Shown here in pieces: positions 1 through 2,485 of a stretch of 64,000 bases of DNA (position 1 is its first letter; the number at the start of each line of letters is the position of its first letter). A model generated the notes under the pieces. It was not told where the DNA came from. It saw only the letters and a list, made by a program, of their open reading frames with translations, and searched no databases. This DNA is from a bacterium (GTDB taxonomy: Bacteria > Armatimonadota > Fimbriimonadia > Fimbriimonadales > Fimbriimonadaceae). The stretch is taken from NCBI GenBank assembly GCA_027485645.1, contig JAIXQR010000002.1, positions 62,001-126,000 on the forward strand. The letters are read 5' to 3'. A program made the position numbers and the translations under genes.

Positions 1-10
1 CTGTTCGGGT

Positions 11-58
11 CCTCATCCCCAACCCCTTCTCCATCGGAATGGAGAAGGGGCTCACGCG
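11..58. repeat. Hairpin dispersed repeat, copy 1
   Basis: A CCTCATCCCC head is followed by a perfect 12-bp stem (CCCCTTCTCCAT, 23-34; ATGGAGAAGGGG, 39-50) with a CGGA loop, then CTCACGCGG. The RHS homology of copy 1 starts about 8 nt beyond it. Confidence 0.8.
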
Positions 59-84
59 GTTTCTCGTGTACGATAGACAGGAAC

Positions 85-756
85 ATGACGGCATGTTTGT
101 TGCGTGATGGAGCGGGTGGGTTTACTTTGACTTCGCGCCGGGCGTATGACCCTTGGGGAGCGATGCGGCAGTGGGGGACTCATCCCAGCGGAGCTTCGGC
201 TTACCAGGGCGCGCCTTCTAACCGCTACGTGGGTTCGCTGGGGCACCAGCAGGATGACGACTCAGGCCTGTACTATATGCGTGCGCGGTACTACGAGCCG
301 GGGTCGGGACGGTTTATCAGTGAGGATCCGGCGATGGATGGTGGAAATTGGTACATCTATTGCGGCAATGATCCAGTAGCTCGGTACGATCCGTCCGGCA
401 AAGCTTCGGAAGACATCCTGACTTTCATAGCTGGTTCGCTGCTCATGGGCTTCGGCCTTCTCATTCTGGGCATCGCGCCGTGGTGCGCGGAAGCATGGGC
501 GGGAATCTCCAGCATGAAGGCTCAGTGCGCAAAGTTAACTGCATCTGGTTTAGACGGAGAGTACGTTAGGCACCTTGGCCGCCAAATCGATAAGTTTGAC
601 AAGCAGGTTAGAGTAGCTCGGACAGCAGGAGCTGGGATGGCTGGAATCGGTGCTGTGCTAATGATGTGCGCTGGGCGAGAAATGATTCGTTTGTCTCTTT
701 TGATGGATATTGAACTTGTCGGCACGGAGTATGACATTCTATGTACATTCTTCTGA
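85..756 (+). CDS. Orphan RHS C-terminal tip with membrane-spanning toxin-like end (partial)
   Basis: This is the end of an RHS/YD-repeat protein. The RHS core signature occupies about residues 48-104, with GLYYMRARYYEPGSGRFIS and a closing YDPSGK. RHS proteins encapsulate a variable C-terminal effector. Here about 118 residues follow the core and contain two hydrophobic stretches (about 109-135 and 184-205), so a membrane-acting tip is plausible, though no known toxin family is recognised. The frame is open back to base 1, through a hairpin repeat. RHS homology, judged against the second copy at 1095-1379, begins only near base 66 and carries a 2-nt deletion just before the ATG at 85. It is therefore a broken fragment, or the end of a gene starting outside the window. 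It overlaps the next small membrane gene by 16 nt, the usual effector-immunity arrangement. Confidence 0.7.
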   Translation: MTACLLRDGAGGFTLTSRRAYDPWGAMRQWGTHPSGASAYQGAPSNRYVGSLGHQQDDDSGLYYMRARYYEPGSGRFISEDPAMDGGNWYIYCGNDPVARYDPSGKASEDILTFIAGSLLMGFGLLILGIAPWCAEAWAGISSMKAQCAKLTASGLDGEYVRHLGRQIDKFDKQVRVARTAGAGMAGIGAVLMMCAGREMIRLSLLMDIELVGTEYDILCTFF

Positions 757-1094
757 CAGATTGGAAAATTGTAGGTCTTTGTGTAACGATTCTTGTTGGT
801 GTGTATCGTGTGTTTTTCCTTGCATCACTTCGTAACAGCTTGACGTTGTCGTTGCGCAAGAAAGTGCTCTTGGCACACGGGGCAGAAGTAGCAACAGGCG
901 CGGTACTCACGATCGTGTTCACTCACGTTTCAGCAGTGTCTACGGGCCTATCGGTAGTAGCATTTCTCCTAGATCTATCGAGCGCAATGCATGACTTCAC
1001 TTTTCGGAAGGGATTTAATTTTTGCCGACTTTTCTCGATGTTCATCTACTGGGTTGCAGCGGTCAGCGGCATAGTAGCGTTCAGAACTGGCTAA
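741..1094 (+). CDS. Small membrane protein, candidate immunity partner of the RHS tip
   Basis: I do not recognise the family. The 117-aa product is strongly hydrophobic with about three to four predicted membrane helices (roughly 9-28, 48-70, 72-84 and 98-114). Its start overlaps the end of the RHS tip by 16 nt, suggesting translational coupling. Base composition is more AT-rich than the surrounding housekeeping genes, as is common for transferred toxin-immunity cassettes. By position it may neutralise the membrane-associated RHS tip; this is inference from location and hydrophobicity only. Confidence 0.55.
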   Translation: MYILLTDWKIVGLCVTILVGVYRVFFLASLRNSLTLSLRKKVLLAHGAEVATGAVLTIVFTHVSAVSTGLSVVAFLLDLSSAMHDFTFRKGFNFCRLFSMFIYWVAAVSGIVAFRTG

Positions 1095-1379
1095 TATTTT
1101 CGTTACGACGGTCAGATGGGGGTTCAGGATGTGGAGACTTCGGGTCCAGTGGGGTCACAGGTGATTTCCGCAGTGAACCGGTATGCGCTCGGCGCTCGCG
1201 GGGTGGATATGATTTCTCGGACGACGTCTTCTAGTACGACCTTGAGCTATCCGGTGTACGATGATCACGGGAACATGACGGCGTGTTTGTTGCGTGATGG
1301 TGCGGGTGGGTTTACTTTGACCTCTCGCCGGGCCTATGACCCTTGGGGAGCGATGCGGCAGTGGAGGACTCATAGGTGA
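1095..1379 (+). pseudogene. Displaced second copy of an RHS segment
   Basis: Immediately after the TAA of the preceding gene the frame reads an RHS-like RYDGQMGVQDVE segment, then the same NMTACLLRDGAGGFTLTSRR block that starts the first RHS fragment. It stops at TAG shortly after the AMRQW sequence. Nucleotide identity to copy 1 is very high from about 1262 to 1372 and ends abruptly at CTCAT. There is no start codon at the homology boundary (first ATG 1116) and no RHS core or tip, so this is best read as a recombination remnant. Such displaced fragments typically carry homology for swapping C-terminal tips. Confidence 0.65.
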
Positions 1380-1413
1380 TTCTAGGTGAGTTCATTGCGA
1401 AGGACGCAAACCT

Positions 1414-1650
1414 ATGATTGAAAAGAATGCGGTTCGGCTGCGAATGCAGACATTGTTATATAACCTAGTCTCAATTTTTGCTTGGTCACTCTTTCTCTTT
1501 GTTGTTCATGTTAACGACAATAAGAAACTAACGGAACGGCCCTTGGGGATGATCGCCATTGGTGGCTTATCCCTATCGCTAATCTTCACCATAGTCCAGT
1601 TAATTCGGGTTATTAGAGCGCGCAATGTGAAAAAGTCTTCGGGTAACTGA
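1414..1650 (+). CDS. Small two-helix membrane protein, possible orphan immunity protein
   Basis: This 78-aa protein has two clear hydrophobic segments (about 13-28 and 43-62) and a basic C-terminal tail. No family is recognised. It starts 34 nt after the displaced RHS fragment, the same position the 741-1094 gene holds relative to the first RHS tip, and is AT-rich relative to neighbours. A role as an orphan immunity protein retained after loss of its effector is suggested by context only. Confidence 0.45.
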   Translation: MIEKNAVRLRMQTLLYNLVSIFAWSLFLFVVHVNDNKKLTERPLGMIAIGGLSLSLIFTIVQLIRVIRARNVKKSSGN

Positions 1651-2113: not shown

Positions 2114-2485
2114 ATGGAAGTTCTTACCAAAATCAATATTGTTCTCGGGTCACTGGTTCTTTACTCTGCGCTTTTGTTCGCACTTCTTGGGGCAATGCTC
2201 GCGGCAATTGGATACGCTTTTTGGAGTGGTTGGCAAATGTTTAAGAAAGCCCGACTAGAATTTCAAAGCGCGGATGAGCAAGTGCGCGGAAGAATCTGTG
2301 ACCTGTTTGAATCAAGTGACGAAGCAATCTGGGTCCAGCCGCCATTTCTGGAAACCCGCTGTCGATGCAAGTTACCGCCAGACAGTCGCTATCTATTTGT
2401 TGCTGAGATAGATGGGGTTACTCGGTACGTTCCGATGAAAGATTTACTTCGAGCATTGAAGCAAAGGGAGCATACGAAAGCCTGA
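2114..2485 (+). CDS. Small membrane-anchored protein of unknown function
   Basis: This 123-aa protein has an N-terminal membrane segment (about 7-38) followed by a soluble region with several charged residues and a CRC pair. I do not recognise the domain. The start ATG follows GGCAGG at short distance. It sits alone between repeat clusters in the accessory patch and is moderately AT-rich, like the other small membrane proteins here, so it may belong to the same RHS-associated cargo. No partner toxin is visible. Confidence 0.5.
   Translation: MEVLTKINIVLGSLVLYSALLFALLGAMLAAIGYAFWSGWQMFKKARLEFQSADEQVRGRICDLFESSDEAIWVQPPFLETRCRCKLPPDSRYLFVAEIDGVTRYVPMKDLLRALKQREHTKA

Follow-up and report, generated by a model that had tools for sequence, protein, structure and literature searches.

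A probable orphan RHS module with an exchangeable, putatively membrane-acting tip in an Armatimonadota genome

The stretch of DNA analysed here (64,000 nucleotides; the window) spans bases 62001–126000 of contig C4 in a 3.19-Mb Armatimonadota genome, G000, which is 98% complete in 7 contigs. Two fragments of RHS genes lie at its start, the first of them running into a variable tip whose gene overlaps the next one, which encodes a small, predicted membrane protein. Relatives of this RHS sequence were found mostly in Armatimonadota MAGs, many of them labelled Fimbriimonadaceae or Chthonomonas. In window coordinates, the locus comprises:

1–55 (core 23–50), no strand assigned: intergenic palindromic repeat element that borders the RHS fragment on its 5′ side, from a repeat search.
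56–84, plus strand: first RHS homology, frame-broken, from alignment with the sister-species copy.
85–399, plus strand: RHS-associated core fragment (TIGR03696) that ends in the NDPVARYDPSG segment, from a profile match of 71.8 bits.
379–1249, plus strand: interval exchanged as a single cassette in comparison with the sister species, whose counterpart is L043:9740-10575.
400–756, plus strand: variable C-terminal tip of 118 aa, a presumed membrane-acting toxin domain, from profiles, hydropathy and a structure model.
741–1094, plus strand: 117-aa protein with three predicted helices, the presumed cognate immunity protein, from the ORF list, hydropathy and a structure model.
1155–1379, plus strand: second RHS segment, a tip-less remnant that stops short of the core end, from alignment.
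1414–1650, plus strand: 78-aa protein, predicted to form two helices and possibly the product of an orphan immunity gene kept after tip loss, from hydropathy and a sister homologue.
2114–2485, plus strand: 123-aa ORF with a single membrane helix at its N terminus, from the sister comparison and a search for relatives.

In the initial annotation, the first RHS copy had been read as the last part of a full rhs gene that the window edge truncates. This was contradicted by the sequence upstream, where no rhs gene was present in the 18 kb examined (ORFs were listed in the nearest 10 kb). The RHS homology at 56–84 lacks 2 nt relative to the sister-species copy and therefore lies out of the RHS frame, with no translation in that frame; the earliest ATG within the frame is at 85, from which the frame is open to 756. 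Because no rhs gene lies upstream and the 5′ end is frame-broken beside a palindromic repeat, the first RHS copy is a displaced fragment, and the export signal and N-terminal part of a full rhs gene are missing from it. What it retains is the core directly before a variable tip, scored by TIGR03696 at more than twice the cut-off (71.8 versus 32.5 bits). The palindromic repeat, CCCCTTCTCCATCGGAATGGAGAAGGGG, has three copies in the window (23–50, 1778–1805 and 1938–1965) with none expected from shuffled sequence, and all three fall inside the first 2 kb. It is a REP-like intergenic element near RHS fragment junctions, and related copies flank the sister-species locus too.

The tip had been described as carrying two membrane helices, of which one is strong (tip residues 6–24, Kyte–Doolittle score 2.24), whereas the second, C-terminal helix is marginal (at most 1.43). 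Searches with the tip gave no match at the curated cut-offs of Pfam, NCBIfam and PADLOC and no significant sequence match in PDB, and a fold search with its all-helical, low-confidence model (mean pLDDT 61) returned no match below E 1; by neither sequence nor fold did it match a known toxin. The glycine zipper GxxxGxxxG is likewise not found in the window tip. Its C-terminal motif, LLMDIE...DIL, recurs, as LL[IM]D[IE]...DIL or with slight variation, in five other tips and in no further tip of those surveyed, and a profile built from these five detects the window tip at E=5e-5; in a related search, the best shuffled decoys reached about 0.005 in round one. On the basis of profiles and this motif, the six tips form one subfamily, which is new to Pfam; among 291 Armatimonadota genomes, a profile search located it in eight, each of them from the same taxonomic family. 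Whole-ORF matches that reached into the tips of other genomes were not counted as tip homology in their own right, as tblastn with the tip alone gave none.

The 117-aa ORF overlaps the tip gene by 16 nt and encodes three Kyte–Doolittle helices, just as the initial annotation of a multi-helix small protein had it. Its model is all-helical and of low confidence (mean pLDDT 61), and both models were used for helix content only. No match was found at curated cut-off in Pfam, NCBIfam or PADLOC and none of significance in PDB, with DUF2955 discarded as a weak match under its cut-off. Since profile searches of both the tip and the 117-aa protein all stayed below cut-off or significance, the earlier view that they represent unrecognised families was upheld. 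The 117-aa protein had no relatives among 291 Armatimonadota genomes, and its pairing with the window tip is therefore not replicated elsewhere.

The exchangeable nature of the tip became apparent from a comparison with G009, a sister species of the same genus (CAMCWC01). At the orthologous locus, the nearby flanks are syntenic at about 91–92% nucleotide identity, and the first RHS core is 89% identical as far as the GNDPV codons (window 378). From 379 to 1249, the two species have nothing in common; homology is back at 1250, inside the second RHS copy, and past this point the second copy and the 78-aa ORF are common to both. In G009, the counterpart of the replaced interval codes for another tip, which looks soluble, and for a soluble 109-aa protein; these are unrelated to the window tip and the 117-aa gene. 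Thus, tip and next gene have been exchanged as a unit between conserved RHS flanks, which is direct evidence of cassette exchange and lends strong support to the polymorphic toxin tip replacement proposed from the window alone. The direct RHS repeats would offer a homologous recombination route for such a swap. Differences between the two first cores are nearly all silent (dN 0.014, dS 0.60, dN/dS approximately 0.02), indicating strong purifying selection; the downstream nuoG-like gene gave a dN of 0.017 and a dS of 0.30.

A second RHS segment does exist, but the 111 nt said to be nearly identical to the first copy were measured as 107 nt at 93% identity (77–183 versus 1267–1373), and RHS homology begins further upstream in the second copy (approximately 1155) than in the first. 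It carries no tip, and the 78-aa ORF begins 34 nt past its stop codon, so that neither the same relative position of the second small protein nor a second complete tip–immunity pair survived closer inspection. The first unit consists of a tip and its neighbour, the second of a tip-less RHS remnant and a possible orphan immunity gene, and the two are therefore not equivalent. The sister-species homologue of the 78-aa ORF aligns ungapped at 60% protein identity, with dN 0.24, dS 0.53 and dN/dS of approximately 0.45 indicating weak constraint; BrnT and PRK07668 were discarded as weak matches under curated cut-offs. Further downstream, the 123-aa ORF lies within several hundred bases that are missing in the sister species. 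A search for its relatives gave nothing convincing, and it is possibly, if uncertainly, another cassette remnant.

Whole-ORF searches detected RHS relatives in 74 of the 85 genomes of the taxonomic family, often as several fragments 1–2 kb apart. We extracted 103 distinct tips from the window, the sister locus and 80 further regions; 97% of them are 100–145 aa long, and approximately 80% of surveyed tips have at least one predicted membrane helix. For the pairing counts, 101 tips of 90–150 aa were used, with the next gene overlapping the tip in 56 cases and lying within 30 nt in 26. A membrane protein was the next gene of 63 out of 77 membrane tips compared with 7 out of 19 non-membrane tips (Fisher p=0.0002), where helices were called at a 19-residue Kyte–Doolittle average of at least 1.6 and the next gene was the longest same-strand ORF near the tip stop, either of which may be wrong in single cases. 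Similar next genes accompanied 3 of 35 similar-tip pairs versus 7 of 4621 other pairs (p=5e-5), and six of those seven are artefacts in which RHS fragments were picked up as neighbours. The neighbours diverge faster still than the tips, and two of the five other members of the window tip subfamily have a next gene predicted to be soluble by Kyte–Doolittle hydropathy. Co-occurrence in other genomes had been set earlier as a test, and the combination of an RHS tip with a tightly linked small, mostly membrane protein indeed recurs across the family.

These counts bear on two other explanations of the locus. If the small downstream ORFs were chance hydrophobic frames in AT-richer intergenic DNA rather than genes, the 117-aa ORF would be expected to lack database relatives, as it does, and the lower G+C content (0.47 versus 0.57 for the window) would fit; however, the way such ORFs consistently overlap or abut the stop codon of the tip, the dependence of neighbour type on tip type and the ungapped 78-aa frame in two species make this highly improbable. 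Somewhat less far-fetched, and still improbable, is the idea that the tip serves an RHS surface protein as a harmless membrane extension, with a neighbour that aids assembly or anchoring instead of conferring immunity. Such an extension would agree with the uniform tip sizes, and no toxin domain was recognised in any of the tips tested. Yet tip and neighbour were replaced as a unit while the core was kept, and their extreme divergence is the behaviour of polymorphic toxins, whereas conservation would be expected of an anchor.

A single homologous superfamily for all tips was rejected because iterated profiles hit shuffled decoys at similar E-values, and only subfamilies are claimed. Enrichment of glycine zippers across the family was unconvincing (17 of 80 observed, 12.5 expected).

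Several other loci came to light during the survey. One 20-kb stretch of genome G004 (L057) is a large natural array of tip cassettes: seven or more displaced RHS tip modules stand in tandem there, and every one of them is followed by a small gene of its own. The genome of the window has another displaced RHS fragment (L008:7395-8399) with an unrelated soluble tip which, by eye, resembles a caspase-like cysteine peptidase (WGHGSPGAF, LRSCNT). Two records are likely to be mislabelled or contaminated: a contig filed as a Methanoregulaceae archaeon that carries a Fimbriimonadaceae-type RHS module (L173), and the sister species, filed as Chthonomonas calidirosea (L144).

Five of the 20 genomes of the genus contain full-length relatives of the window core type, and most of the complete ones start with a signal-peptide-like sequence. 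This is a likeness to WapA-type toxins, the Sec-secreted RHS/YD-repeat toxins of Gram-positive bacteria; unlike these, the window module is a fragment without a parent. Neither G000 nor G009 yielded a secreted full-length parent of the window core type, an absence that for G000 is not absolute, given an assembly 98% complete in 7 contigs. G000 has two full-length rhs genes of another core type; a full-length rhs gene with matching core, the recombination partner that is typical, although not strictly defining, of orphan modules, is missing in G000, and no match to the T6SS sheath gene VipB (PF05943) was found there. Because the full-length G000 rhs genes are of another core type and both a secreted parent and a sheath gene are lacking, the window module appears, from the genome sequence, to be without an obvious vehicle at present.

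In the main rival explanation, the fragments at the locus are a decaying graveyard left by a lost rhs gene and its tips, now neither expressed nor functional. Such decay would account for the missing full-length parent in G000, the frame-broken 5′ end beside a repeat, the tip-less second RHS copy and the weakly constrained 78-aa ORF. By contrast, the frames of the tip, the 117-aa and the 78-aa ORFs are all open, and the dN/dS of approximately 0.02 in the first core argues against decay, although this constraint may predate truncation or reflect exchange with functional genes. The structure models are too weak to decide between the module and decay readings. Overall, we regard decay as unlikely, while giving it more weight than the other two alternatives.

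As an arrangement of genes, the locus resembles the orphan rhs-CT/rhsI modules that were demonstrated experimentally in Salmonella and are also present in other Enterobacteriaceae (Koskiniemi et al. 2014, PMC3967940): a short RHS core fragment with a C-terminal tip, an immunity-like gene linked to it, the absence of any export signal in the module itself, and core repeats that permit recombination. A Salmonella orphan prior to recombination has no vehicle either (PMC3967940), whereas in G000 the vehicle itself seems to be absent, with neither a full-length parent of matching core nor a T6SS sheath gene. The window module differs further in that the parents in window-type relatives carry signal peptides, that tip and neighbour are new families, and that the phylum is Armatimonadota.

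In Pseudomonas aeruginosa, Tse5/Tsi5 combines a pore-forming RHS tip with a two-helix membrane immunity protein (PMC9637101, PMC10684867), and membrane chemistry was shown for this pair (PMC9637101) as well as for CDI ionophores (PMC11630599). With Tse5/Tsi5 the window shares an RHS-borne hydrophobic helical tip beside a small membrane protein, here judged by the hydropathy of the tip and the 117-aa protein, and by this analogy the tip is probably membrane-depolarising. Unlike Tse5-CT, it has no PDB sequence match and no significant fold match (low-confidence model). Tse5 moreover acts as an effector of a T6SS and has its RHS protein intact, and toxicity of the window module is a prediction from the analogy. 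The polymorphic ionophore toxins of CDI systems are very diverse helical membrane toxins whose small hydrophobic CdiI proteins diverge rapidly (PMC11630599). The diverse helical membrane tips surveyed here, with small hydrophobic neighbours that diverge faster than the tips, are similar in this respect (PMC11630599), but CDI ionophores are carried by CdiA with an entry domain and a glycine zipper, a motif that is not clearly enriched in the window family.

We favour, with a probability of roughly two in three, an orphan RHS module in which an exchangeable, membrane-inserting toxin tip is accompanied by an overlapping small membrane immunity gene. The 3′ end of the RHS core would bear the tip, and the small membrane protein encoded by the overlapping gene would neutralise it. 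Core direct repeats on either side (56–378 and 1250–1379) would allow homologous recombination to swap or excise the tip-plus-immunity unit. Once joined to a full-length secreted RHS protein such as that of the relatives, the tip could be passed on to neighbouring bacterial cells, where it would depolarise the membrane, with kin shielded by the small protein. As the secreted parent is missing in G000, the module there may today be a silent reservoir or an immunity-only locus. Several findings speak against this reading: the tip matches no known toxin, its pairing with the 117-aa protein occurs at this locus alone, some neighbours in the tip subfamily are predicted to be soluble, the second tip helix is marginal, zippers are not clearly enriched, and G000 has no parent gene for delivery.

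Modules of this architecture are already known. What appears to be undescribed, in the libraries and papers searched, are the families of tip and neighbour and the phylum's large repertoire of membrane tips; a literature search on Armatimonadota, Rhs and toxin gave no account of such arrays. We tentatively propose that Fimbriimonadaceae-type Armatimonadota keep large, rapidly shuffled RHS tip arrays, mostly of approximately 125-aa membrane-depolarising toxins with fast-evolving membrane immunity proteins and Sec-exported RHS delivery, which would amount to a radiation of pore-forming polymorphic toxins that has gone largely undescribed. The swap relative to G009 provides a clean, testable example of cassette exchange. 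RHS tips that form pores and come with membrane immunity are known from few examples, and the approximately 80 membrane-type tips of a single bacterial family that has been little studied suggest that a lineage can have a repertoire dominated by this type.
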